DNA from: Dictyobacter arantiisoli
GTDB lineage: Bacteria > Chloroflexota > Ktedonobacteria > Ktedonobacterales > Ktedonobacteraceae
Reading direction: 5' to 3'
NCBI RefSeq assembly: GCF_008326305.1
Contig: NZ_BIXY01000061.1
Coordinates: 1 to 42,828 of the forward strand
DNA: 42,828 bases
Shown here piece by piece: positions 14,389 to 31,902 of this stretch. Position 1 is the first letter of the stretch. The number at the start of each line of letters is the position of its first letter. The notes beneath the pieces were generated by a model. That model made no database searches. It saw only the letters and a list, made by a program, of their open reading frames with translations, and had not been told where the DNA came from. The position numbers and the translations under genes were made by a program.

Positions 14389-16059
14389 TCAGGAGCATGG
14401 CTTATTTGAGCGGTATTGACCGCAAGGGATCGGGCCTTCGTTGCGGGAGGACCCCTGGGTGAGGTTGGTGAGGATGACCTGATAGGGGGTGAGGGTGATG
14501 GTGCTCTGGTTGAGATGGACGTTGACTTTGTGCGCGGTTTTGTTGACGAGCATGAGTTTTGTGTTCGATGCCAGGGCCCCGATCTGCGCGGGATCGGAGA
14601 TGGTTGTGTTGTAGAGGATGGTGCCAGCTCCAAAATCCTGGGTGAGGGTTTTGTAGGTGGTGTACCAGGGATAGGCGAGGCCGCCGTTCGCTTTTTGGGT
14701 GGATGTCCACAGTCCGTAATCAGCGCCTCCAGCGCCGAAGTTGTTCCAGGATAGGGCAACTCCTCCGCCAGCCTGAATAAATTGCATCATGGTGGAGGCT
14801 TTGAGCGCGTTGTCCTTGTCGAAACTGCTGCTGTTATTTTCCTGGCTTGAGGCATACCATTCGGCGAGCCAGATGGGAAGGGTGGTTGCCCCTGGATAGG
14901 TTGTGGGGTCCAATGAACGCATCCATTTTACGGTGTCGGCGAAGACGTCGGCGGCGGCAAATGGCTGGTGATTAAGGATATGCCCCGTGTCACGGTTCTC
15001 GAGCGAGCCATCAAAGGTGATGAAGCCGGCGCCGCTTTTGTGCTGTAGCCAGTATTGAATAACGTCCAGTGGGCGTTGATCAATGACACCATAGGCTTTG
15101 CTCAGATGGGATGGATGGCTGCTCTGCGCTCCATTCGACCAGGTATCGAGGACGACATAAGGACCCCCAATTTTGATGTCCTGCTGATTGATATGCTGTG
15201 CGTTGGCAACATTCATGATGGTGCTATAGACCTGATTGTACATGTAGGTGTAGCCATGGCGGGCATTGGCTCCATTCGCTTGGCCGGGACTTATGGTGTA
15301 GTCGTAGCTGTTGATATCAGGATTGAAATAGCCTTTGAGCTCGTTCCAGACCTGGAAGGTGCGGACATTGTAGGGTGGCTGCATATAGCGTTCCGCGACC
15401 GCCTGTACCAGATGGGTCCACTTATCCATCTTGTTATCCAGGATACGCGAGCTATATGCAATGGGTTGCCATTCATCGTTGGCTGTCAACTGCTTCGTCT
15501 TCCCATGTCCATCGTATTCGCCCTTCATCCACCAGGGGGCTTCGGCCAGTGTGATCACGGGTGTCTGGCCCAGATGGATGGCGGTCTGGATACGCGCATC
15601 CAGCGCGCCCCAATCCGTGGGATTAGGGGTGGAGGGATCCGGCCAGGGATCAGGCAGGCCCCAGGCCATGATCGAGGTGTTCATGTATTTTACGCCCTGC
15701 TTGATCTGTGTATAGACCTTCCCGATTGCGCAGTCATCATTGCCGTATCCTTGTGTCATTTGATTGTCTGATTGCGTGATCCCGGCGGCAAACTGGGAGG
15801 TGCTTGTTGTCTGTTTATCATAATTGACGGTCACGTCAGTAGGCGTTACATTTGTTTCTTGTCTGCTATGTTGCATGGATGATGGGACCTCACGGGGTGT
15901 CGTACATTGATTAGCAGTCTGTTTTTTAGTGCTGCTCGCACCTGGACCCGCGCAGGAAAAGATAAGTGGCAACAAGACCACCAGTCCTAACAGGGATAGG
16001 ATGGAGTTTTTTTGCCATGTTCTTCTTATAGTTGTCGGTACAGTCAGTACTCTCTGCAT
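14389..16059 (-). CDS. Lipoprotein glycoside hydrolase, clan GH-A, GH39-like (downstream paralog)
   Basis: 556 residues. The N-terminal signal ends in a lipobox (LLPLIFSCAG), so the protein is anchored outside the membrane. After a Ser/Thr linker comes a (beta/alpha)8 glycosidase: GLPDPWPDPSTPNPTDWGAL, TPVITLAEAPWWMKG, then FQVWNELKGYF with the likely acid/base Glu, and LPIWLAEWYAS with the likely nucleophile Glu. A small C-terminal beta domain follows (LMLVNKTAHKVNV). It is closely similar over its whole length to the protein at 16442-18061, with long stretches shared at DNA level (around 15430 and 17405), so the two are tandem duplicates. GH39 is the best guess, substrate unknown. Position beside exopolysaccharide genes suggests trimming or release of that polymer. 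Confidence 0.82.
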   Translation of the reverse strand: MQRVLTVPTTIRRTWQKNSILSLLGLVVLLPLIFSCAGPGASSTKKQTANQCTTPREVPSSMQHSRQETNVTPTDVTVNYDKQTTSTSQFAAGITQSDNQMTQGYGNDDCAIGKVYTQIKQGVKYMNTSIMAWGLPDPWPDPSTPNPTDWGALDARIQTAIHLGQTPVITLAEAPWWMKGEYDGHGKTKQLTANDEWQPIAYSSRILDNKMDKWTHLVQAVAERYMQPPYNVRTFQVWNELKGYFNPDINSYDYTISPGQANGANARHGYTYMYNQVYSTIMNVANAQHINQQDIKIGGPYVVLDTWSNGAQSSHPSHLSKAYGVIDQRPLDVIQYWLQHKSGAGFITFDGSLENRDTGHILNHQPFAAADVFADTVKWMRSLDPTTYPGATTLPIWLAEWYASSQENNSSSFDKDNALKASTMMQFIQAGGGVALSWNNFGAGGADYGLWTSTQKANGGLAYPWYTTYKTLTQDFGAGTILYNTTISDPAQIGALASNTKLMLVNKTAHKVNVHLNQSTITLTPYQVILTNLTQGSSRNEGPIPCGQYRSNKPCS

Positions 16060-16441: not shown

Positions 16442-18061
16442 TTAATGGGTAATAATAACCTGATAGGGAGTGAGAGGAATAGTGGTTCCATTCACGCTTA
16501 CGTTGATAGGATTTGCTGTGGTGTTGACGAGCATGAGTTGCCTGTTTGAGGCCAGCGCAGTGACCGCAGCGGGATTCGATACGGATGTTATGTAAATAGT
16601 GGTGCCAGCACCAAAGTTATCCATTAAGGACTTGTAGGTGTTATACCAGGGGTAGGCCTGACCACCACCTGGCTTCAGAGTGGATGTCCAGAGCCCGTAA
16701 TCCGATCCTCCGTTGCCAGCGTTATCCCAGGATAAGGCGGTTCCCCCACCGGCCTGGATAAATTGCATCATGGTAGAGGCTTTGAGTGCGTTATCCTCAT
16801 CAACGCTGGTACCATCTATTTCCGTCCAGGAGAACCATTCCGATAAATTGATGGGGAGTGTGGTTGAACCGGGATAGAGCTTTGGATCGAGCGCACGAAT
16901 CCATTTGACCATATCGGCAAAGAGGCTGGCAGCCGCGAAAGGATTCTGGTTGAGCACCTTCATGGTGTCGCGGTTTTCCAGTGAGGCATCAAAAATAATG
17001 AAGCCCGCGCCAGTTTTGTGCTGTAACCAGTATTGCAGGACATCCAGTGGGCGTTGGTCAAAAATACCGTAGGGGGTCGTGACCTTTGAGGGATCGCTCT
17101 GTCTGGCGTTGGACCAGATATCTGTAAAGACGTATGGACCTCCGACTTTGATGTCCTGGGTGGCGATATGTTGGGCGGAGGCTGTATTCAGCAAGGTATT
17201 GTAGACCTGATTGTACATGTAGGTGTAGCCATTTTTGGCGTTTGCACCATTCGGTTGGCCGGGATCGGTCGTAAAGTCATAGTTATTGATATCAGAATCA
17301 AAATAGCCTTTGAGTTCGTTCCAGACCTGGAAAGTGCGGACATTGTAGGGTGGCTGCATATACCGTTCAGCGACCGCCTGGACCAGATGAGTCCACTTAT
17401 CCATCTTGTTATCCAGGATACGCGAGCTATACGCGATGGGTTGCCACTCGTCGTTGGCCGTCAGGGTCTGGGTTTGTCCATGCCCATTGTACGCACCCTT
17501 CATCCACCAGGGGGCGATAGCTAAGGTAATGATGGGTGTCTTGCCAGTATCAACCGCCAGTTGTACCCGCGCATCCAGCGCGCTCCAATCCGTGGGATTG
17601 GGCGTGGTAGGATCGGGCCAGGGATCGGGCAAGCCCCATCCCATAATGGGCGTATTTACATATTTCGTGCTTTGCTGGATCATCGATTTCACATTCGCCA
17701 CAGCCGTAGGATCACTCCCACTTCCCGGATCTAATGAGCCGTCAGATAATGTGATGCCCGAAGCGTATTGCGATGTAATGGCGCACTGTTTTTTGATCGT
17801 GACGGTAATTGTCGTCGAACTGTTCCCCGACTGTCCATTTCCTGCATTGCATATTGCATTATAGGTCGCGGTGGCTGTGGCGCTTTTGTTGGGCAAAAGG
17901 TCCCCCTGGTTGGTGTTGCCCCCATTCTTGCTGCTAGAATTACTACTTGATGCATCATATTGACTGCCTTTATTGAATGGATTTGAGCAGGATACTAGCA
18001 ATGGAACAAGTAAGACAAGCAGACTGAGTATATAAAAGGAGTTCATACTCCACTTTTTCAT
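16442..18061 (-). CDS. Lipoprotein glycoside hydrolase, clan GH-A, GH39-like (upstream paralog)
   Basis: 539 residues from ATG 18061, chosen because MKKWSMNSFYILSLLVLLVP followed by LLVSCSNPF is a perfect lipoprotein signal; the longer frame adds 16 residues that do not fit a signal. Then a low-complexity Ser/Asn/Gly linker and the glycosidase domain: GLPDPWPDPTTPNPTDWSAL, APWWMKGAYNGHG, FQVWNELKGYFDSD (acid/base Glu) and LPINLSEWFSW (candidate nucleophile Glu). It differs from its paralog mainly in the linker and the last 30 residues. It is the first gene of the minus-strand pair, divergent from the GT2 gene across a 540-base gap. Confidence 0.82.
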   Translation of the reverse strand: MKKWSMNSFYILSLLVLLVPLLVSCSNPFNKGSQYDASSSNSSSKNGGNTNQGDLLPNKSATATATYNAICNAGNGQSGNSSTTITVTIKKQCAITSQYASGITLSDGSLDPGSGSDPTAVANVKSMIQQSTKYVNTPIMGWGLPDPWPDPTTPNPTDWSALDARVQLAVDTGKTPIITLAIAPWWMKGAYNGHGQTQTLTANDEWQPIAYSSRILDNKMDKWTHLVQAVAERYMQPPYNVRTFQVWNELKGYFDSDINNYDFTTDPGQPNGANAKNGYTYMYNQVYNTLLNTASAQHIATQDIKVGGPYVFTDIWSNARQSDPSKVTTPYGIFDQRPLDVLQYWLQHKTGAGFIIFDASLENRDTMKVLNQNPFAAASLFADMVKWIRALDPKLYPGSTTLPINLSEWFSWTEIDGTSVDEDNALKASTMMQFIQAGGGTALSWDNAGNGGSDYGLWTSTLKPGGGQAYPWYNTYKSLMDNFGAGTTIYITSVSNPAAVTALASNRQLMLVNTTANPINVSVNGTTIPLTPYQVIITH

Positions 18062-18600
18062 GCGTATCCCCATCCTTGTAAATTTTACCGATAATGTAAC
18101 GAATGGCATCGCTGATGATTGAGCGGGCTAGTACTTTTGGGTGTCCCTGAAAGGGTGCTCCAGCTCTTTTTCCTGCATGCGTACGCGAGGAGACAAAAAT
18201 CTGTTTGCTTGACGAATGAAGATCGATCAATATATCATGGAAAAAAAAGCTCTGGAAATACGAGTATTCTCCAGCACTTTGAACAAAACGCTTCATCCTT
18301 AATCAACGGTGACCTTTTCGCTTCCCAATTACTTATCGTGCCCTGGCCTGGAGATACAAACGTGTGCTAAAAGATGTATATATTTTTTTGCTCTGGCAAG
18401 AACAGTATCTCCTATTCTTATATAGTAATACATGAATGTGATGATGCGTCAAATAAATAGGAAATATAGGACCTCTTCTATAACAGCGCGTAGTCCTGTG
18501 GGACTTCATCCCTTAGAGTGAAAGGGGGGCAGGGGCAGCCGCCCAGACGGAGCGCGAAAGAATACATTGAGTAAAAAAGAAGGTTGATTAGAATATTTCT
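18062..18600. other. Divergent control region of the exopolysaccharide block
   Basis: No supported gene. It must carry the promoters for the minus-strand glycosidases and the plus-strand GT2 gene. One candidate plus-strand promoter is TTGACG (18209-18214), 16-nt spacer, TATATC (18231-18236), which would give a long leader of about 360 nt. The stretch just before the GT2 start (18500-18560) is G-rich. Confidence 0.4.
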
Positions 18601-19392
18601 ATGCAAGTTACAACACAAGTTCCAAAAATAAGCGTTGTTATTCCCACCCGCAACGAGGCCAAAAACCTGTATCATACGCTCCCCAAAATTCCCGCTATGG
18701 TGAGTGAAGTTGTGCTGGTGGATGGTCATTCAACCGATGATACCATTGCCGTTGCCAGAGAGTTGTATCCTTCCATCCGCATCCTGGAACAGACAGGAAA
18801 AGGGAAAGGGGATGCCATGCGCATGGGATTTGCGGCGTGCACAGGTGACATCATCGTTATGCTGGATGCTGATGGTTCGGCCCATCCAGCTGAGATTGAT
18901 CGTTTTGTAGAGGTGCTGCTGGCTGGCTACGATTTTGCCAAGGGCTCTCGTTTTGTTAAAGGCGGGGGGAGTGATGACCTCACGCTATTGCGCACGCTGG
19001 GAAACTATGCTTTATGCACTGTTGTCAATATACTCTTTGGTCAACGCTATAGTGATCTTTGCTATGGATATAATGCTTTCTGGCGTCAATGTCTGGATTA
19101 TGTAGATTTGGATTGCACCGGTTTTGAGATCGAAACACAGGTCTGCCTGCGTATGTACAAGGCGAATATGAAAATTGTTGAAGTGCCGAGTATGGAGCAT
19201 GCGCGTATTCATGGTCAAAGCAATCTCCACACCTTTCGGGATGGCTGGCGCGTGCTGAAGACGATCTTTCGTGAACGGCTTGTGCGGGGCGTGAAGCTCA
19301 AACCAGAGACACGCACCTTTCAGTCGTCTCAGGAAGCACTTGCCTCTGTAGCACCTAAAACACCTGTAGCACCACGAGAAGTCGGGCTGTAA
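18601..19392 (+). CDS. GT2 family glycosyltransferase (dolichol-phosphate mannosyltransferase-like)
   Basis: 263 residues with a GT-A fold: ISVVIPTRNEAKNLYHTL at the N-terminus, VVLVDGHSTDDT, GKGDAMRMGF, the DxD motif in MLDADGSAHPAEI (about residues 97-110), and GSRFVKGGGSDDLTLLRTLG. One hydrophobic stretch (ALCTVVNILFG) may touch the membrane. It resembles DPM1-type enzymes that load a sugar on a polyprenyl phosphate, which would supply lipid-linked sugar to the GT-C-like protein at 21407. ATG 18601 has only a weak ribosome binding site. It is first in the plus-strand block. A GCAAGAA/TTCTTGC hairpin lies 24 nt past its stop. Confidence 0.9.
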   Translation: MQVTTQVPKISVVIPTRNEAKNLYHTLPKIPAMVSEVVLVDGHSTDDTIAVARELYPSIRILEQTGKGKGDAMRMGFAACTGDIIVMLDADGSAHPAEIDRFVEVLLAGYDFAKGSRFVKGGGSDDLTLLRTLGNYALCTVVNILFGQRYSDLCYGYNAFWRQCLDYVDLDCTGFEIETQVCLRMYKANMKIVEVPSMEHARIHGQSNLHTFRDGWRVLKTIFRERLVRGVKLKPETRTFQSSQEALASVAPKTPVAPREVGL

Positions 19393-19691: not shown

Positions 19692-21374
19692 ATGCGGGAG
19701 TTTTTGTTGGTGAGAATTTCGCTACTTATGCAATGGCTGAAGAATAATAGTGTCATGCTATTGAACACAGGATCGCTGATTGGCACCATGTTAGTAACAT
19801 CTGGCCTCGGATTCGCGTATTGGTTTGTTGCAGACAGGCTTTTCCCACTGAGCGCTGTCGGACTGGCTTCTGCCGCGACCTCAACCATGATGCTCCTCTC
19901 CAGTATTTGTTTATTAGGTCTCAGTACTCTTTTAATCAGTGAATTACCACGCAATAAGGGGCAGGAAGGTACGATTATCAGTGCCGCGCTCATTCTGGTC
20001 GGTCTGGTCGGTACCGTGGTTGGAATTATTTTTGCCCTTTGCACTCCCATTATTTCAAAAAACTTGCAGCCAATTGGTGCCGATCTTCCCAGTATCCTTC
20101 TCTTTGGACTGGGTATTGGTCTCACCTCGGTCACGATTATTGCGGATACCTGTATGATCGCCTTGCTCCGAGGTGAATTACAATTCTGGCGCAATGCGCT
20201 CTTTGCGGCCTCCAAATTAATCCTCCTCTTTGTGGCTGCCCGGCTGCTCGCCGAAAAAACTGGTATCTCTATTTACACGACCTGGATGGCGAGCAATCTT
20301 ATCTCGATGCTTCCCCTGCTGGCTTTTGGCATCTATAAGGCGAAAAAGACCCATCGTAGCCTGCGACCGCATTGGGGCATGATGCGCAAGGTCGGCCATG
20401 CCGCTGTTCAGCACTACATCCTGAATCTGATTTATCAGACACCCACTCAGATTCTGCCAGTGATTGCGACGATTATGCTCTCGGCGTCCGCGAATGCCTG
20501 GTTTTACACTGCATCGATGATCGCCAATTTTATCTTTGCGGTGATTGGTTCGCTGACCACGGTTTTGCACGCCACCAACGCCACCCAGATCCACACCCTG
20601 CCCCAGAAGTCCCGTATGACGGTCGGCCTCTCTTTTGGTGTGAGCCTGATTGCTGGCATTGTATTGATCGTTGGGGCGCATTTTATGCTGGGCTTCTTTG
20701 GTCACAGTTATGCTGATCAGGCATCCTGGAGTTTACGCATTCTCGCTATTGGCGCATTACCGCTCATTATTAAATACCACTATCTGGCAATCCATCGCAT
20801 TAAGGATCATGTCTCGAAAGCCATTGTGCCGATCAGTATTGGCAGTGTGCTCGAGTTAGTGATGGCTATTGTGGGAACACGCCTCTGGGGCCTATCAGGA
20901 CTGAGCCTTGGCTGGGTGATTGGTATGTATATCGAGGCTATCATCATGGCCCCCACCGTATTTCGGACCATGAAAGGATTAGATATACCGGCCATGAGCC
21001 TGCTTGAGCATGAGGATCTTGCGCTGGCTGGCTCTGGAAGTAGCAGTCAAGAGGAATCCATCTCGATCTCTATGAAGATGATGGCGATCGATTCACCGAC
21101 CGATATGATTCGCAGCATCGTTTTTATAGATGCACCGACGATTAAATTGAAGAAGTCAGAGCTCTATGGCAATGAAGCTCTCACTGACGCTTACGATGAT
21201 GCTACTGCTCCCACTATCAAACTAGACAAAGCATCTCTGCGTAAAGCTAAAGCAGCTCAAACCGAAAGAGAACTGGTGAAAAAGAACCTTCCAGCGACAA
21301 AGATCTCCAGTGATCAGATTAACGAGTTTATGAATGCACCAACCATCAAAATGCACAGCATTAAGAAGAAATAG
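19692..21374 (+). CDS. Polysaccharide flippase (Wzx/MATE-like) with a C-terminal PTIxL-motif tail
   Basis: 560 residues. About 12-14 membrane segments (residues 20-435) with the general look of the MVF/PST flippases: NTGSLIGTMLVTSGLGFAYW at the start, paired six-helix halves, SLRILAIGALPLIIKYHYLA in the second half. It probably turns a lipid-linked oligosaccharide across the membrane. The last 120 residues are a charged cytoplasmic tail carrying DAPTIKLKK (about residue 482), TAPTIKLDK (506) and NAPTIKMHS (548, near the end). The same kind of motif is repeated in the tail of the product of 23309, which is unusual. The start is uncertain: ATG 19692 lacks a good site, while GTG 19710 has GGGAG 9 nt upstream. 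The stop is 32 nt before the next gene, so they form an operon. Confidence 0.88.
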   Translation: MREFLLVRISLLMQWLKNNSVMLLNTGSLIGTMLVTSGLGFAYWFVADRLFPLSAVGLASAATSTMMLLSSICLLGLSTLLISELPRNKGQEGTIISAALILVGLVGTVVGIIFALCTPIISKNLQPIGADLPSILLFGLGIGLTSVTIIADTCMIALLRGELQFWRNALFAASKLILLFVAARLLAEKTGISIYTTWMASNLISMLPLLAFGIYKAKKTHRSLRPHWGMMRKVGHAAVQHYILNLIYQTPTQILPVIATIMLSASANAWFYTASMIANFIFAVIGSLTTVLHATNATQIHTLPQKSRMTVGLSFGVSLIAGIVLIVGAHFMLGFFGHSYADQASWSLRILAIGALPLIIKYHYLAIHRIKDHVSKAIVPISIGSVLELVMAIVGTRLWGLSGLSLGWVIGMYIEAIIMAPTVFRTMKGLDIPAMSLLEHEDLALAGSGSSSQEESISISMKMMAIDSPTDMIRSIVFIDAPTIKLKKSELYGNEALTDAYDDATAPTIKLDKASLRKAKAAQTERELVKKNLPATKISSDQINEFMNAPTIKMHSIKKK

Positions 21375-21406
21375 CATTAGAAGGAATAAAGAAGAGAGAA
21401 TCATAA

Positions 21407-23305
21407 ATGATGAAGACTGGTTCAATCGGCATGGCGAGAACAGGGTCCTCTGTACCAAATAGCAAGATGATGGACAGTATCTGTCTCCTCTTGCCTCTCA
21501 TATTTTTTGTGCTCTGGTTTTTCTCTCTTGGATCTATCAATGTCGGGCAGATGAACGATCTGGGCCTGGTGTCTGTGATGCCTCCAACCATGATTGCCGC
21601 ATTTTTGCTCATGACGGTAAGTTTTTGTCTGACACTACAGCGTAGTAGCAGATATAAAGTTCCACTCTTGCTGTTCCATATAGCTCTGATGATCTTTATG
21701 CTGTATGGGATTACGATGCTGGTGGAGCAGATGCCGCGCTTTGATATTGTGTATCGACATACAGGATATACCGAATTCATTCAGCGTACTGGCACCACCA
21801 ATCCTAATCTCGATGCCTACTTTAGCTGGCCGATATTTTTCTCACTGGCCGCCTTTCTCAATACGAGCGCGGGTTTTAGCAGCATTCTCCCTTATGCCGA
21901 TTGGGCCCCCATTGCCTTCGCCATCCTGTACTTTGCCCCGTTGCATATGATTTTTTCGGCCTTTACCAGAGATAAGCGTATTATCTGGCTTGCGCTCTGG
22001 TTTTTCTATCTGACCAACTGGATCTGGCAGGATTATTTCTCACCACAAGGATTTAACTTTTTTCTCTATCTGATGATGATTGCCATCCTGGTAAGATGGT
22101 TTAAGATGCCTGTGGATGTGCCCGCGCGACCACTCGCCGCCCGATTACGCCGCATCCCTTTTGCGACGCCGTTCTACAATTGGTTGACGGCTGCCGATAC
22201 ACAGCAGACGCCAGCCAGTCCTGCCTTGCGTCTACTGTTGCTGATCTGCTTCCTGCTCATATTTGCCTTTGATGTCACCAGTCATCAATTGACCCCTATG
22301 TTTACCCTGTTGAGCGTGGGTGGATTGATCGTTTGTCATCGTGTACGCCTCTGGTGGCTACTTATTGTGATGATTCTGATGGAAGTTTTCTGGCTATTCG
22401 TGGGCGCGAGTACCTTTATGTCGGGCCATATGAGCATGGTCTTTTCTGGATTACACCTCTTCTCTTCCTTCAACAACAATGTATCGGGGCGCGTGGCTGG
22501 CAACGCGGACCATACCTTTGTGGCTAAATTGCGCGTCTATATGTCGGTCCTCATCTGGGGATTGGCCTTTGTGGGCGCGCTGATTCGCTTGCTTCAGAAG
22601 AAACTGGATGCCTCACTTGCCATTCTTGCGGTGATGCCATTCCCATTATTTATTGCGCAACCCTATGGTGGCGAGATGATGCTCCGCAGTTATATGTTCT
22701 CATTGCCTGCGATGGTCTTCTTTGTGGCAGCATTGTTCTACAGTTCGCCAGTGGCGGCTGTACAGAATCTCCCGATTGTAAAACGCTTCTCCCTCTCTTT
22801 TCTGCGGCGACCAGCCTGGCACTCTGTTGCGCTCGTCGCCGTCAACATTATCTTGATTGCCGGTTTTCTTTTTACCCGCTATGGCAATGAAAATGAAGAC
22901 TACATCACCTATAGTGAATTTGCTGGCGTCAATTATCTGTATAGCATCGCACCAGGCAATTCATTGTTCATGACCTGTTGGATAGGCGGACCATGGCAGT
23001 TTAAAGATTATGAAAAATATACTCTTGATGACCTGGGGACTGTAGACACAACTCAGAAGGTTATTTATCCTGCGAATGTGCCGGGTATCGTCAAAGTCAT
23101 GCGCCTGAAAAGTTCTGGCGCTAACGCGTATCTGATCTTCACGCGTAGTGAAGTCACCAGATTCGATGCTACTTCTGGCTTGCCTGCGGGAAGTATGCTG
23201 ACCCTGGAACATGCCGTTACTGCATCGGGCGATTTCACACTTATTTACAAGAATTCCGATGTGCAAATATATGCACTGGCCAGTTCAGCGCAAGGAGGTC
23301 AATAG
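21407..23305 (+). CDS. Large multi-pass membrane protein, GT-C glycosyltransferase or polymerase-like
   Basis: 632 residues, about 13 predicted membrane segments (residues 25-485), then an extracytoplasmic domain of about 140 residues. After the fourth or fifth segment comes NWIWQDYFSPQGFNFFLYLM; the QDYFSPQ loop is typical of large actinobacterial and chloroflexal membrane proteins with a GT-C-like layout. No clear GT-C metal motif was found. In this gene order (GT2, flippase, large membrane protein, GT4) it is the natural candidate for the polymerase or for lipid-sugar-dependent transfer on the outside. Start ATG 21407 has AAGAGAG upstream. The next gene begins 3 nt after its stop, so the two are translationally coupled. 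Confidence 0.8.
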   Translation: MMKTGSIGMARTGSSVPNSKMMDSICLLLPLIFFVLWFFSLGSINVGQMNDLGLVSVMPPTMIAAFLLMTVSFCLTLQRSSRYKVPLLLFHIALMIFMLYGITMLVEQMPRFDIVYRHTGYTEFIQRTGTTNPNLDAYFSWPIFFSLAAFLNTSAGFSSILPYADWAPIAFAILYFAPLHMIFSAFTRDKRIIWLALWFFYLTNWIWQDYFSPQGFNFFLYLMMIAILVRWFKMPVDVPARPLAARLRRIPFATPFYNWLTAADTQQTPASPALRLLLLICFLLIFAFDVTSHQLTPMFTLLSVGGLIVCHRVRLWWLLIVMILMEVFWLFVGASTFMSGHMSMVFSGLHLFSSFNNNVSGRVAGNADHTFVAKLRVYMSVLIWGLAFVGALIRLLQKKLDASLAILAVMPFPLFIAQPYGGEMMLRSYMFSLPAMVFFVAALFYSSPVAAVQNLPIVKRFSLSFLRRPAWHSVALVAVNIILIAGFLFTRYGNENEDYITYSEFAGVNYLYSIAPGNSLFMTCWIGGPWQFKDYEKYTLDDLGTVDTTQKVIYPANVPGIVKVMRLKSSGANAYLIFTRSEVTRFDATSGLPAGSMLTLEHAVTASGDFTLIYKNSDVQIYALASSAQGGQ

Positions 23306-23308
23306 ATC

Positions 23309-24481
23309 GTGCGTTTCACAAAAGTGCTCTGGCCGATCATCATCGTATGCTCCGCCCTGGTAGCAGTAATGGCAATGTCTGTGTTTCCTGGACTTCCAGC
23401 AAGGCCGCTTTTCATCATGTGGTTTCTCTTTATTTGCCCTGGCATGGCGTTTGTGCGCTTCCTGCATCTGAAGGAATTGCTGGTAAAATTAGCACTGGCC
23501 ATGGCTGTGAGCTTCTCAATCGATGGCATTGTTGTCGGTATCTATCTCTATGCCGGCCATTGGTCACCGCTGGCAATGATGCTCACCCTGGCAGTCTTTA
23601 GCATTGCGGCAGTCAGCATAGAATTCACGAATGCACATGTGATGGTATACAATCGTTTTGCTGTTTTGCGCAGCCTTGGAATCCTATTGACCCATCCTTT
23701 GATTGTCGGGACGAGTAGTGCAAAGCCTGGCAATAGAGATGATCTGGATCTGGTTGAGGAACCTACCGTCCGTATCGTCAGCATGAACTCTATCTCCAAC
23801 TTACTTGCCACCGCAACCCCAATGGACATAGAAGAGAAGCCAACCATAGAGATGAGCACGGCTCGCCCCCAACCCTCATCAGCCCCGAACTGGGAGGATG
23901 ATATTGAGGAGAAGCCAACCATAGAGATGAGCATGGCTCAACCCTCATCAGCCACGAACTGGGAGGATGATATTGAGGAGAAGCCAACCATAGAGATGAG
24001 CACGGCTCGCCCCCGACCCTCATCAGTCCCGAACTGGGAGGAAGATATTGAGGAGAAGCCAACCATAGAGATGAGCATGGCTCTCCCCCAACCCTCATCA
24101 GCCGCGAACTGGGAGGATGATATTGAGGAGAAGCCAACCATAGAGATAGGTTGCATTCCCAGCACATCCCCACCAGTCCAGGAAGAGGTAGACAAGACTA
24201 TCCAGGTCGTTAAATCCCCCTGGCTGCAAGAGCAGCAAACTAAGCCAGAAGACAAACCTGCGGAAGAAGATGACATTGAGAAGAGAGCGACCCACCATAT
24301 TGCCAATGTGGCTCCGCCGAAGCAACCTGACAGGGATGATCTTCAGCCTCAAAAGCCATCTGGAGAGAATATTGGCGGTAACGTCCAGCAATCCTCTCAG
24401 GGAGAGGACGCGAAGCCGAAGAATCCTCCGCCTGCTCTCCGCAAGCGCTCCCCGGTCAGGTTTACGCGTATTGAAAAGTAA
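23309..24481 (+). CDS. Membrane protein with long tandem-repeat PTIEM tail
   Basis: 390 residues, GTG start with AAGGAGG inside the end of the previous gene. The N-terminal 130 residues carry about four membrane segments (VLWPIIIVCSALVAVMAMSV; LFIMWFLFICPGMAFVRFL; ALAMAVSFSIDGIVVGIYLY; LAMMLTLAVFSIAAVS). The rest is a soluble, disordered, acidic and Pro-rich tail. It begins with EEPTVRIVS, then four units of about 25 residues (EEKPTIEMS...SSAPNWEDDI) and a fifth partial unit (EEKPTIEIG), and ends with VDKTIQVVK and a basic C-terminus (RKRSPVRFTRIEK). The N-terminal domain is a short relative of the membrane part seen in polymerase-type proteins, but I do not recognise the family. The tail motif matches that of the flippase two genes upstream. 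Confidence 0.8.
   Translation: MRFTKVLWPIIIVCSALVAVMAMSVFPGLPARPLFIMWFLFICPGMAFVRFLHLKELLVKLALAMAVSFSIDGIVVGIYLYAGHWSPLAMMLTLAVFSIAAVSIEFTNAHVMVYNRFAVLRSLGILLTHPLIVGTSSAKPGNRDDLDLVEEPTVRIVSMNSISNLLATATPMDIEEKPTIEMSTARPQPSSAPNWEDDIEEKPTIEMSMAQPSSATNWEDDIEEKPTIEMSTARPRPSSVPNWEEDIEEKPTIEMSMALPQPSSAANWEDDIEEKPTIEIGCIPSTSPPVQEEVDKTIQVVKSPWLQEQQTKPEDKPAEEDDIEKRATHHIANVAPPKQPDRDDLQPQKPSGENIGGNVQQSSQGEDAKPKNPPPALRKRSPVRFTRIEK
23828..24149 (+). repeat. Coding tandem repeat, unit about 75 bp
   Basis: Units begin at 23828, 23903, 23972, 24047 and 24122 (75, 69, 75, 75 bp and a partial one). All keep GAGAAGCCAACCATAGAGAT and AACTGGGAGGA. Length changes are multiples of three, so the frame is kept; the second unit lacks two codons. 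Confidence 0.95.
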
Positions 24482-24658: not shown

Positions 24659-25795
24659 GTGTTCAATAACCAGCCTCCATTAAACATATTAATGACTACG
24701 CCGCGCTATTTCCCGGATACTGGTGGGACTGAAATGCATGTGCACGAAGTTGGACGGCGTCTTGCGCAACGTGGTATGAATGTAACCCTTTTGACAACGT
24801 TTCCTCATCACTACACAGCGCCAGTTCCGGTGGAGGAAGAAGTTGAAGGAATGAAGGTCATACGTGTGCAAGCCTGGAGACAGCCATCAGATTTCTATAT
24901 TGCCCCGGACATCCATTCTTTTATGAAACGCGGCCATTGGGATCTCATTCATTGCCAGGGCTGCCATACCTTGTTCTCACCGATGGTCATGCTGGCTGCC
25001 AGAGCAGAAAAAATACCCTATATTGCGACATTTCATTCGGGTGGACATTCGTCTCGTTTGAGAACGACATTTAGAGCGACACAATGGAAACTCTTACGTC
25101 CTCTTCTCGCGGATGCTGAGAAGCTCATTGGCGTCTCCGAATTTGAGACAAACTATTTCCGTGACCTCCTGCATCTTCCTGAAAAACAGTTTTCTGTCAT
25201 TCCCAATGGCTTTAGCGTGCCTGAGGGATCATATCCTGAGGTTGAAGCGTCGTCAGCAAATCTGATTGTCTCGGTTGGTCGCTTAGAACGTTATAAAGGA
25301 CATCAGCATTTAATTGCCGCCCTTCCTAAAATACGCGAAGCGCGTCCCGATGCCCGACTGGCAATTCTGGGGGCGGGACCCTATGAAGCAGCATTACATG
25401 AAATGGCCCGCAAGCTGAATGTGGCTGAACATGTCACCATCCGCGCTATCCCGGCCAGCAACCGGGAAGAAATGATGGCCCTGCTCTCCCAGGCATCGCT
25501 GGTAACATTGCTCAGCGAGTACGAATCGCAAGGTATTGCCATCATGGAGGCGCTGGCGTTGCATCGTCCGGTCCTGGTTGCCGACACATCTGCCCTCAGA
25601 GAATATGCCCAGAAAAATCTGGCCCGTGCCGTATCTCCCGACAGCACGCCCGAAGAACTGGCCGCCGCCGTCCTGGACCAGTTAAGCAATCCACTTATTC
25701 CTGCCCAACTGAACTTACCGACCTGGGATGACTGCGCAGAACAACTCTACAGACTCTATCATACCGTCGTCAGAAAACCATCCTACGCGCTCTAA
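24659..25795 (+). CDS. GT4 family glycosyltransferase
   Basis: 378 residues, GTG start with AAAGGAAC upstream. GT-B fold: N-terminal TTPRYFPDTGGTEMHVHEVG, typical of GT4 enzymes, C-terminal VSVGRLERYKGHQHLIAALP, and the nucleotide-sugar-binding EX7E-like region ESQGIAIMEALALHRPVLVA near residue 290. There are no membrane segments; it acts at the cytoplasmic face adding a sugar to a growing lipid-linked chain. It lies 180 nt behind the repeat-tail gene, separated by a hairpin, so it may be partly uncoupled from the operon. The repeat element B begins on the base right after its stop codon. Confidence 0.92.
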   Translation: MFNNQPPLNILMTTPRYFPDTGGTEMHVHEVGRRLAQRGMNVTLLTTFPHHYTAPVPVEEEVEGMKVIRVQAWRQPSDFYIAPDIHSFMKRGHWDLIHCQGCHTLFSPMVMLAARAEKIPYIATFHSGGHSSRLRTTFRATQWKLLRPLLADAEKLIGVSEFETNYFRDLLHLPEKQFSVIPNGFSVPEGSYPEVEASSANLIVSVGRLERYKGHQHLIAALPKIREARPDARLAILGAGPYEAALHEMARKLNVAEHVTIRAIPASNREEMMALLSQASLVTLLSEYESQGIAIMEALALHRPVLVADTSALREYAQKNLARAVSPDSTPEELAAAVLDQLSNPLIPAQLNLPTWDDCAEQLYRLYHTVVRKPSYAL

Positions 25796-28683: not shown

Positions 28684-29310
28684 ATGTATACACCGAGAGA
28701 ATTTGGGGAAAGAATCCGTGTTTCCGTCAAGACGTTGCAACGATGGGATCGGCAAGGGGTGCTCAAAGCCCACCGAACTGCAACGAATAGGCGCTACTAC
28801 ACGCAAGAAGACCTCCTCTCGATTCTCCCCCAGGAAGCGGGGGAGAGACGGCGGATCATTGCCTATTGCCGCGTATCGCGTGTCGCGCAAAAGCCGGACC
28901 TGGAAAACCAGCGAAGAGTCCTGGCCGCGTTTTGTGAAGCGAACCGCTATGAAGTCGATGAATGGATCAGCGAAATTGGTGGGGGACTCAATTTCAAACG
29001 GAAACAGTTTCTGCGACTGGTTGATGCCATCCTTGCGGGAGAAGTGGCAGTGCTGCTCATTGCCCACAAGGATCGACTGGCACGCTTTGGGTATCACTTG
29101 CTGGTGCATCTGTGCGAAACCCACGACTGCGAAATCGTGGTGATGAATACCGAGCAGTTTTCTCCTGCACAAGAGTTGGTTCAGGATTTGATCACCATTA
29201 CCCATTGTTTTAGCTCACGGTTGTATGGACTGCGCAACTACCGCAAAGTATTAGAAAAGGCACTCAAAGATGAAAACCGCGCACCGGATCAGAATGAATC
29301 CCACACCTGA
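28684..29310 (+). CDS. tnpA: IS607 family serine recombinase (TnpA)
   Basis: 208 residues. N-terminal MerR-like helix-turn-helix (YTPREFGERIRVSVKTLQRW, then TNRRYYTQEDL), followed by a resolvase catalytic domain: IIAYCRVSR with the nucleophile serine (about residue 65), LENQRRVLAAFCEANRYEV, LIAHKDRLARFGYHLL with the catalytic arginines, and a C-terminal helix. The size and order are typical for IS607 enzymes, which insert with little target choice and make no duplication. Its 3' end overlaps tnpB by 41 nt in another frame. Confidence 0.95.
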   Translation: MYTPREFGERIRVSVKTLQRWDRQGVLKAHRTATNRRYYTQEDLLSILPQEAGERRRIIAYCRVSRVAQKPDLENQRRVLAAFCEANRYEVDEWISEIGGGLNFKRKQFLRLVDAILAGEVAVLLIAHKDRLARFGYHLLVHLCETHDCEIVVMNTEQFSPAQELVQDLITITHCFSSRLYGLRNYRKVLEKALKDENRAPDQNESHT

Positions 29311-30565
29311 ACAGGTGGCGTATTTGAAACGTGCCTGTGGCACCAGGCGGTTCATTTACAATTGGGGGCGCGAACAGTGGGAAAAGCAGTACCAGGCGTA
29401 TACGCTGGAACAAAAAACGGTTCCTGAAGGGCAGCGCGTACTTCCACTACCCAACGCACTTGCGCTGAAGAAGCAGTTCCATGCTATTCGAGCAGAAGCC
29501 TATCCGTGGACATATGAGGTCACCAAGTGCGTCGTGGAGGGAGCCTTTGATGATCTAGGAAAAGCGTACAGTAACTTCTTTGCTGGACGGGCGGCCTATC
29601 CAAGATATAAGCAGAAAGGGAAATCGCACGAGTCGTTTTATCTCTCCAATGATAAATTCACCCTCGGCAGTCATTGGATCGCCATTCCGGGGTTAGGTCG
29701 TTTCATCCTGGATCAACGGAAGCAGGAGAAGGAGCGAGGCAAGCTCAGGCGAAAACTGGGAACGGTCAACCTGGCGGAAAAGCTGCGTTTTGTCGAGACA
29801 GGAAAGGTGACTCCTCCCACAAAGAAGCGCAACAAACGAAAACAGGTGCTCTGTGAGTCGGTCAAGATTCTCGGAGCCACCGTCTCCTGTGAGGCTGGTC
29901 ACTGGTATCTGAGCATTCAGATGGAGATCAAGAAGCCCTTGCCTCCGACTCCGGTACCAGTCGTGGGAGTGGATGTGGGGTTGAAACAAGCTGCCGTGGT
30001 GAGCGATGGACGAGTGCTTGAGAACCAAAAGCCACTCGCACGCCATCTCAACAAGCTCGGCAAGCTCCAACGCCACCTCAGTCGCAAACAGAAGACCAAA
30101 GACCCGCACACGGGGAAAACCACCTTCAGCGAGAACGATCAGAAGCAGCGGGTGAAGGTCGCACGCAAGCATCAGCAGATCGCCAACATCCGTCGAGATG
30201 TCCAGCACAAATTCACCACCGAACTGGCTCGAACCTGCGGGACCATTGGCGTCGAGGACCTCAACATCTTGGGGATGATGGCCAATCGGAAGCTCTCACG
30301 TGCCGTGGCTGATGCGGCGATGGGACAACTCTTGCAGTTGTTGAAGACCAAGGTCGCTGCTTCTGGCGGGAACTTCTTCATCGCCTCGCGCTGGTTTCCC
30401 TCGACCAAACGCTGTTCAAAGTGCGGACAGATCAAAAAACGGATGCCTCTCAAGCATCGCACCTATCAGTGTCTGGCCTGTGGGCTGGTGATCGATCGCG
30501 ATCTGAATGCGTCCTTGAACCTGGCACAGTTTGCACACGACATGCTTCGCCGCCTTTCGGCTTAA
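29270..30565 (+). CDS. tnpB: TnpB RNA-guided nuclease of IS607
   Basis: 431 residues, the usual TnpB length. N-terminal helical part (RIRMNPTPEQVAYLKRACGT; RFIYNWGREQWEKQY), and a split RuvC domain: VGVDVGLKQAAVV (first Asp, about residue 234), GVEDLNILGM (Glu, about 328) and VIDRDLNASLNL (last Asp, about 408). The zinc ribbon is CSKCG and CLACG (about residues 381-403). All key residues are present, so an active RNA-guided nuclease is expected, with its guide RNA made from the tnpB 3' end and the right end of the element. The C-terminus after RuvC III is short. Confidence 0.95.
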   Translation: MKTAHRIRMNPTPEQVAYLKRACGTRRFIYNWGREQWEKQYQAYTLEQKTVPEGQRVLPLPNALALKKQFHAIRAEAYPWTYEVTKCVVEGAFDDLGKAYSNFFAGRAAYPRYKQKGKSHESFYLSNDKFTLGSHWIAIPGLGRFILDQRKQEKERGKLRRKLGTVNLAEKLRFVETGKVTPPTKKRNKRKQVLCESVKILGATVSCEAGHWYLSIQMEIKKPLPPTPVPVVGVDVGLKQAAVVSDGRVLENQKPLARHLNKLGKLQRHLSRKQKTKDPHTGKTTFSENDQKQRVKVARKHQQIANIRRDVQHKFTTELARTCGTIGVEDLNILGMMANRKLSRAVADAAMGQLLQLLKTKVAASGGNFFIASRWFPSTKRCSKCGQIKKRMPLKHRTYQCLACGLVIDRDLNASLNLAQFAHDMLRRLSA

Positions 30566-30942: not shown

Positions 30943-31902
30943 ATGAGGTTTCTGGGACACCGCGAATCGCTCCAATCCTCAGCGAGCACCGCGGATGCAG
31001 ATGTCAGTGACAGCGCCTGGGAGCGAAACCAGCTCGCTACGTCTTCTACAAGTGCTGAGGTGACCGAGCAGACCGAGGACATGGTCTCCCTGCCGGAAGA
31101 GGACCTCGACGACGACTTCTGGCAGTTCCTCAGCGAGGGGTTTCCCAGCACCGAGGACATGGTCTCCCTGCCGGAAGAGGATCTCAACGACGACTTCTGG
31201 CAGTTCCTCAGCGAGGGGTTCCCCAGCACCGAGGACATGGTCTCCCTGCCGGAAGAGGACCTCGACGACGACTTCTGGCAGTTCCTCAGCGAGAGGTTCC
31301 CCAGCACCGAGCCGACTGTGCACGATGCCTCCAGGGATCAAGCAGAGGTTAGCCAGACGAGTCAGCAGCGCTGGCGGGAACGAATGAAGAACGACCTGGA
31401 GTACCGGGAGCGTGCACGGAAGTACCAGCGGGAGTATAATCGGGATCGGTATAAGAACGAACCGGATTACCGGGAGCGTTTGCTGGAGCACAAGCGGGAG
31501 CGGTACAAGAACGAATCGGATTACCGCGAGCGTGCACGGAAGTACCAGCGGGAGTACAATCGGGAGCGGTATAAGAACGATCCGGAGTATCGGGAGCGCA
31601 GACTGCAATACGAGCGAGAGTCCGGCGCAAACTGGAAATTACAAGAGAAATGGCTCGACGTCGCCACTAAGATACACGAACTCACGGAGCAGGTTGAGAC
31701 GACGGAGCAGACCATTTTCGATCAACGCCCAGCCTGGAACGACCGATTAGAGCACAGCTCAAAGCACCTGATGGACACGATGCAGACCACTTTCTATCAC
31801 CCCAACGACAGTCTAGAAGAGCGTCTGGCTCGGCAACGTCTTGAACAGTCCCGAGAGCAGCGGCTTAAAGATCTCAAAACGCATCTTGCAGAGGAGCCCT
31901 AG
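30943..31902 (+). CDS. Repeat protein: acidic/aromatic triple repeat plus charged coiled-coil arrays
   Basis: 319 residues, not recognised. Residues 44-122 are three 26-residue units (TEDMVSLPEEDLDDDFWQFL then SEGFPS), nearly identical at DNA and protein level. Residues about 140-225 are Arg/Tyr/Glu-rich repeats of the type RYKNxxxYRERxxxYxRE, expected to form long helices. The last 90 residues look like a coiled coil (KIHELTEQVETTEQTIFDQR; SLEERLARQRLEQSREQRLK). There is no signal peptide or membrane segment. The DDDFWQFL core, acidic with two aromatics, is like a peptide docking motif. GAGAGG lies 13 nt before the ATG. It directly follows the IS607 element; whether it belongs to it is unknown. 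Antisense open frames here are artefacts of composition. Confidence 0.7.
   Translation: MRFLGHRESLQSSASTADADVSDSAWERNQLATSSTSAEVTEQTEDMVSLPEEDLDDDFWQFLSEGFPSTEDMVSLPEEDLNDDFWQFLSEGFPSTEDMVSLPEEDLDDDFWQFLSERFPSTEPTVHDASRDQAEVSQTSQQRWRERMKNDLEYRERARKYQREYNRDRYKNEPDYRERLLEHKRERYKNESDYRERARKYQREYNRERYKNDPEYRERRLQYERESGANWKLQEKWLDVATKIHELTEQVETTEQTIFDQRPAWNDRLEHSSKHLMDTMQTTFYHPNDSLEERLARQRLEQSREQRLKDLKTHLAEEP
31075..31308 (+). repeat. Three exact-length 78-bp coding repeats
   Basis: Units start at 31075, 31153 and 31231, each 78 bp, with only a few differences (for example CTCGACGAC versus CTCAACGAC). Such identity implies recent duplication or ongoing correction. Confidence 0.95.

Follow-up and report, generated by a model that had tools for sequence, protein, structure and literature searches.

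Control of bacterial proteins by Hanks-type kinases and FHA domains is known mostly for single sites, in mycobacteria and in the type VI secretion system (T6SS). In mycobacteria, the FHA protein FhaA is recruited to the flippase MviN/MurJ through phosphothreonine (pThr), under the control of PknB (PMC6180346, which cites Gee et al. 2012). The phosphorylated C-terminal tail of mycobacterial CwlM also binds FhaA and ties envelope synthesis to MurJ (PMC6180346). In the Agrobacterium T6SS, the TssL peptide DLPpTVVEI binds an FHA protein only if phosphorylated (PMC3953482). Here, we describe a locus of Dictyobacter arantiisoli (Chloroflexota; Ktedonobacteria) in which a short threonine-centred tag recurs in the tails of two otherwise unrelated membrane proteins of one putative exopolysaccharide export operon, i.e., a flippase (19692; proteins are named by their start position) and a protein with four transmembrane helices (4-TM protein, 23309). 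The stretch analyzed (the window) is one whole contig of 42,828 bp (NZ_BIXY01000061.1) from a 7.2-Mb genome in 256 contigs.

Threonine tags in two membrane proteins of one operon

The genes of interest in the window lie in the order GT2 glycosyltransferase (18601), flippase (19692), GT-C-fold protein (21407), 4-TM protein (23309) and GT4 glycosyltransferase (24659). The original prediction listed ten sites of the form P-T-[IV]-x-[LMIV] in the tails of the flippase and the 4-TM protein. All ten are present in the translations (Table 1), and in each the Thr is followed directly by Ile or Val and, at +3, by a hydrophobic residue. The full form holds for nine of them, the tenth, DKTIQV, being without Pro. 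An acidic residue or Asn precedes the Pro-Thr pair at most sites, as proposed, but TAPTIKL has no acid within four residues and NAPTIKM has Asn only. Nor are the sites all separate: because five of them (four EEKPTIEM and one EEKPTIEI) derive from a single 75-bp tandem repeat, about six are independent. The Pro is often missing in other genera (DDTVVV, EDTRKLN, EEKETVNIP, LDTMQLP) and had to be dropped from the conserved rule, which is therefore acid-x-x-Thr-x-x-hydrophobic and not P-T-[IV]. What stands is that membrane proteins from a single operon, with no other kinship, have in common a conserved tag specific for Thr, at ends predicted to be cytoplasmic and unstructured.

The motif was more frequent in these proteins than in shuffled sequence. 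In a sample covering 2.03 Mb (28%) of the genome, or 592,730 residues of longest-open-reading-frame protein, PT[IV]x[LMIV] occurred nine times in the two window proteins against 0.7 in shuffles, and 56 times in 1553 other proteins against 63.0, i.e., at chance level. In a 701-protein sample the two window proteins ranked highest (six and three matches), with every other protein at two or fewer. For further counts the rule was set as an acid within -4 to -1, Thr, and Leu, Ile, Val or Met (LIVM) at +3, with a Ser version as control. By this rule the window's own flippase tail taken alone was not significant (2 vs. 0.94, p 0.24), so that support for the rule in this tail comes from the orthologues. 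We pooled the cytoplasmic ends of the operon proteins from the window and from 15 relatives' loci. The Thr rule was matched 108 times against 38.3 expected (2000 shuffles, maximum 60), whereas the Ser version was depleted (18 vs. 36.9). Since the pooled sequences are related, the count was rerun with one genome per genus and near-identical sites collapsed, which gave 37 vs. 16.1 for Thr (standard deviation 3.65; reached by none of 5000 shuffles) and 7 vs. 16.3 for Ser. The shuffles preserve composition, not local order, and part of the Thr excess could stem from patterns common to acidic tails in general. The Ser control speaks against this as the main cause. As a negative control, 29 long N-terminal extensions of GT-C proteins outside Ktedonobacteraceae gave 13 vs. 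12.1 for Thr and 13 vs. 13.7 for Ser. The tag is a real, Thr-specific and lineage-restricted feature of the putative export complex.

Conservation and change of carrier

The flippase/GT-C/4-TM operon is widespread across Chloroflexota. The GT-C protein ranges far beyond Ktedonobacteraceae, with a flippase-like open reading frame nearby at most loci, and is accompanied by the 4-TM protein in Chloroflexota; orthologues of 21407 and 23309 were adjacent at every one of the 15 loci, from 14 genomes of relatives, that contained at least one of the two. Tag arrays were confined to Ktedonobacteraceae among the loci compared, and the flippase tail was found in only part of that family. When the flippase tails of six sequences from the window's genus and Ktedonobacter were aligned, Thr and the hydrophobic residue at +3 of the three tags were kept in 18 of 18 cells. 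Cross-genus identity was 0.54 in the tag columns and 0.18 in the remainder; the tag thus changes less than the tail around it, rather than being lost from tails that persist.

The carrier of the tag differs by lineage, being the C-terminal tail of the flippase, that of the 4-TM protein or an N-terminal extension of the GT-C protein. In the window's genus and Ktedonobacter (G032, G033, G034), both the flippase tail and the 4-TM tail carry tags. In Tengunoibacter (G036a), where the 4-TM protein is tailless, they lie on the flippase tail and on a 170-residue GT-C N-extension. In the metagenome-assembled genome (MAG) G046, the GT-C N-extension carries four copies of DDTVVVKK and three of EDTRKLN/D around a zinc ribbon, with seven of its seven Thr in tags (the contig ends there), and in MAG G027 the 4-TM tail bears eight tags. 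The latter genome also holds a flippase and a GT-C protein fused in one open reading frame (L066:3-3293), whose 275-residue linker contains a zinc ribbon and a few Thr tags. Loci without a flippase tail were mostly without a 4-TM tail as well (G029, G030, G043, G022, G036b; G031 has a short tail).

From their folds, all three tagged ends are predicted to be cytoplasmic. In the AlphaFold2 model of the 4-TM protein, for which an N-in topology would apply, four helices (residues 3-25, 32-51, 57-82 and 87-128) are followed past residue 135 by a tail with a predicted local distance difference test score (pLDDT) of about 45-50. For the flippase, the MOP fold would place the C-terminus in the cytoplasm; simple hydropathy shows only nine segments. 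It would be rare for a regulatory tag to be retained in this way while its carrier protein changes.

Proteins and neighbors of the operon

The flippase match to PF01943 lies just below the curated cut-off of 28.2 bits, and a Pfam scan of this protein found no kinase family, i.e., no C-terminal pseudokinase domain. For 21407 a Pfam scan gave no family. Its AlphaFold2 model (mean pLDDT 79.2, predicted template modelling score 0.81) had as best Foldseek match in the PDB the glycosyltransferase ArnT (5f15, E 9.8e-7), followed by oligosaccharyltransferases; at E <= 0.001 the model matched 16 PDB chains, from ArnT, oligosaccharyltransferases, AftA, DPY19 and ALG9. Two acidic residues that may be catalytic, E107 and D209, did not vary in the alignment. 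The 4-TM protein had no Pfam match and could not be named through Pfam or NCBIfam, DUF6541 being matched in just two of 15 family members (best E 0.00099).

Table 1. Features of the export operon and its tag sites in the window.
Feature	Coordinates	Strand	Basis
GT2 glycosyltransferase, opens the operon	18601..19392	+	Pfam PF00535, 86.5 bits; orthologue at most relatives' loci
Flippase, MOP/Polysacc_synt-like, 560 residues, C-terminal tail (predicted cytoplasmic)	19692..21374	+	PF01943, 26.2 bits; orthologues in relatives
Flippase tail bearing tags, residues 432-560	20985..21371	+	Translation
Tag 1, DAPTIKL	21129..21149	+	Thr and hydrophobic +3 in 6/6 aligned tailed sequences
Tag 2, TAPTIKL	21204..21224	+	Kept in 6/6 as PTIRL / HTIRL / PTVKL
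Tag 3, NAPTIKM	21333..21353	+	Kept in 6/6 as PTIKM / ITMGM / PTLQM
Polytopic GT-C-fold membrane glycosyltransferase, 632 residues	21407..23305	+	AlphaFold2 and Foldseek
4-TM protein (residues 1-128) with long unstructured tail, 390 residues	23309..24481	+	AlphaFold2
4-TM tail bearing tags, residues 119-390	23663..24478	+	8 acid-T-x-x-hydrophobic sites vs. 2.06 in shuffles
Tag 4, EEPTVRI	23756..23776	+	Orthologues align as VETPTVQIP, TETDTVQMP
75-bp tandem repeat, 4.3 copies, encodes five EEKPTIE[MI] tags	23834..24147	+	Tandem Repeats Finder, 89% matches
Pro-less tag, VDKTIQV	24188..24208	+	Translation
GT4 glycosyltransferase, downstream gene	24659..25795	+	PF00534, 103.5 bits; at the equal place in G023 and G025

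Elsewhere in the window, two paralogous lipoproteins on the reverse strand (14389-16059 and 16442-18109) share a conserved WNELKGYF and have no Pfam match; relatives of the 16442 protein lie near the export operon at most loci, and the two are probably secreted glycosidases of the export system. An IS607-type unit at 28684-30565 comprises genes for a MerR-headed resolvase and for OrfB/TnpB (Cas12f1-like), which overlap at their ends. At 30943-31902, three near-identical STEDMVSLPEEDL(D/N)DDFWQFLSE(G/R)FP repeats are followed by charged RERxRKYQREYNRxRYKN repeats in a protein that matched no Pfam family.

Possible links to kinases, phosphatases and FHA proteins

In the D. arantiisoli genome, the only one in which FHA content was counted, there are about 74 kinase (PF00069), 20 FHA (PF00498) and 12 PP2C phosphatase (PF13672) matches. 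The pooled Thr sites are enriched for an acid at -3 (1.8-fold), Pro at -1 (2.0-fold) and LIVM at +3 (1.9-fold), with a hydrophobic residue at +1 too. The PknA-dependent profile of M. tuberculosis has acidic residues at -1 and at -3 to -6, Pro at -1 and +2, and Leu or Val at +3 (PMC7164672). With acid before the Thr and a hydrophobic residue at +3, the context of the tag resembles that of bacterial Hanks kinase sites. FHA domains are pThr-specific and Ser is avoided in the tag; an FHA reader is therefore favored.

A PP2C phosphatase gene (C1:158552-159436), located directly upstream of a kinase gene (C1:159508), encodes a variable insert that contains DQPTIKL and DPDQTVKL. Of 18 aligned orthologues, 16 have [DE]QPT in this insert, in some cases twice, and the remaining two have AQETVSL and AQTTVRL; the tag Thr is never Ser. 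The linker of the adjacent kinase contains TTIQIP and TIMVP, with no acid-containing tag. In a second PP2C (C62:24798-27410), which also contains a zinc ribbon, the linker holds the repeats AEQTTIVP, AEQPTVVP and AEQPTVDI. For the narrower pattern [DENQ](x)PT[IVLM], chosen post hoc, the linkers of kinase, FHA and PP2C proteins gave 26 matches against 12.0 by shuffle, and other proteins 105 against 107.7. Among the relatives, G025 encodes a membrane protein with two FHA domains near the operon (L056:4187-5611), with FhaB/OdhI-like matches and a DEPTLNRS of its own; it is a possible reader in that lineage only.

A proposed mechanism and its alternatives

We propose that the flippase, the GT-C glycosyltransferase and the 4-TM protein would form an export or glycosylation complex, on whose cytoplasmic unstructured ends the tags would be multisite pThr acceptors. 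One or more of the many Hanks-type kinases would phosphorylate the tag Thr, PP2C phosphatases would take the phosphate off, and an FHA-domain protein would read the phosphorylated tags and so gather, activate or inhibit the complex. We favor this reading as a whole, i.e., multisite pThr tails on an export complex that are read by an FHA protein, with modest confidence. Phosphorylation of the tag Thr is its likeliest part, given the sequence context. By analogy with described systems, reading by an FHA domain has about an even chance, and the clustering of the two proteins through their tags is conceivable but rather doubtful. A more far-reaching version, in which a portable multivalent phospho-tag moves among the three membrane proteins, a kinase/FHA network clusters or gates export and PP2C provides the counter-switch, is tentative, and we would not expect it to hold in full.

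Several findings weigh against reading the tags as pThr sites bound by an FHA protein. The original prediction looked to co-occurring FHA or kinase genes, but neither kind of gene is a constant member of the operon at the relatives' loci, FHA being found only near the operon of G025 and a kinase only near that of G046. It also raised the question of an enrichment in envelope proteins, which was not borne out: a whole-genome DNA pattern search returned 22 matches, seven of them in the window, against 15 in a reversed control, with no excess outside the window. The loose tag was not enriched in low-complexity linkers of kinase, PP2C and FHA proteins (8 of 606 Thr vs. 44 of 3014 in others) and is therefore no general signature of the kinase network. 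The tag match in the first PP2C was found post hoc. Lastly, the TssL peptide has Glu at +3 and not a hydrophobic residue.

Two broader roles for the tag were rejected on these counts, i.e., that of a general envelope tag, few of the matches outside the window lying in long frames, and that of a mark of all kinase, FHA and PP2C linkers, by the loose-motif test. The long-frame matches outside the window were the PP2C, the C-terminus of the DNA polymerase III delta' subunit (LDTPTIKM, probably by chance), the tail of an MFS protein and one other. The MFS-like transporter (C97:24546) has a short end tail with ADMPTVELECV and is a further membrane protein with one tag.

Of the alternatives, the one that survives best is a docking tag that acts without phosphorylation, an adaptor binding the unmodified acid-x-x-Thr-x-x-hydrophobic linear motif and gathering the complex. 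Multivalent arrays, the change of carrier and the conserved hydrophobic +3 residue would suit any linear docking motif, and the zinc ribbons near the tags in G046 and G027 suggest further protein-protein contacts. However, a strict Thr with avoidance of Ser is less easily accounted for if the tag is neither phosphorylated nor read as pThr, although burial of the Thr methyl group could explain it, and the context matches bacterial kinase sites; we consider docking alone unlikely.

Less probable still is phosphorylation without a reader, in which the tails would serve as kinase sinks or as charge switches, affecting in cis the flippase and the partner protein, with no FHA scaffold. The sequence evidence for it is identical to that for an FHA-read tag, and M. 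tuberculosis stays viable on inactivation of FhaA and of the MurJ pseudokinase domain (PMC6180346). The retained hydrophobic residue at +3, on the other hand, suits FHA pockets. Since kinases accept Ser besides Thr, the avoidance of Ser also favors a pThr-specific reader.

Neutral growth of acidic, Pro- and Thr-rich low-complexity tails, with the tag as a by-product of composition, would account for the tandem repeat that supplies half of the sites and for the many relatives wholly without tails, but is highly implausible given that repeat-collapsed counts remain above composition-preserving shuffles, tags outconserve the remaining tail and long extensions from other lineages stay at chance level.

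Read as FHA-bound pThr sites, the tags would amount to a phospho-tag system, predicted from sequence alone, that spans many sites and several proteins of a complex for exopolysaccharide export in Ktedonobacteria. The exact Thr residues are named, and the rule (acid, Thr, hydrophobic +3, Ser avoided) can be used to find further substrates.

Comparison with known systems

The tag had been put forward as new among exopolysaccharide systems. A literature search on Wzx together with FHA found no paper on the subject, and no paper was found that names substrates of Ktedonobacteria kinases; the claim of novelty has to be narrowed nonetheless, as pThr/FHA control of an envelope export protein has precedents in MviN-FhaA and TssL-Fha.

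The GT-C protein shares its fold with known GT-C glycosyltransferases (ArnT, PglB/OST; ArnT 5f15), although identity to them is only about 12%. The flippase resembles MviN/MurJ of the MviN/MurJ-FhaA switch in being MOP-like and in its C-terminal region, which is predicted to be cytoplasmic and may likewise be controlled by a Hanks kinase, with an FHA protein recruited through pThr. MviN/MurJ, however, is a peptidoglycan flippase with a pseudokinase domain, whereas 19692 has an unstructured tail with three tags; the window system would serve exopolysaccharide together with a GT-C protein, and its tags occur on a second protein as well and, among relatives, on a third. In CwlM, an FHA domain binds pThr sites of a tail, as is proposed for the tags, but CwlM is no polytopic export protein, its main anchor is one Thr (T382), and it has neither arrays nor a motif shared among operon partners. 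TssL-Fha (PpkA) resembles the window system in that the site lies in an end, cytoplasmic in TssL and predicted to be so in the window proteins, of an export component of the inner membrane, and in its D-x-P-T-[VI] core. It differs in having a single site, in belonging to another export machine and in that its kinase and Fha are part of the T6SS, a gene linkage that does not hold for MviN. Because its flippase lacks a pseudokinase domain and its operon contains neither a kinase nor an FHA gene of its own, the window system is a member of neither family, yet by analogy it most likely works like MviN-FhaA and TssL-Fha.

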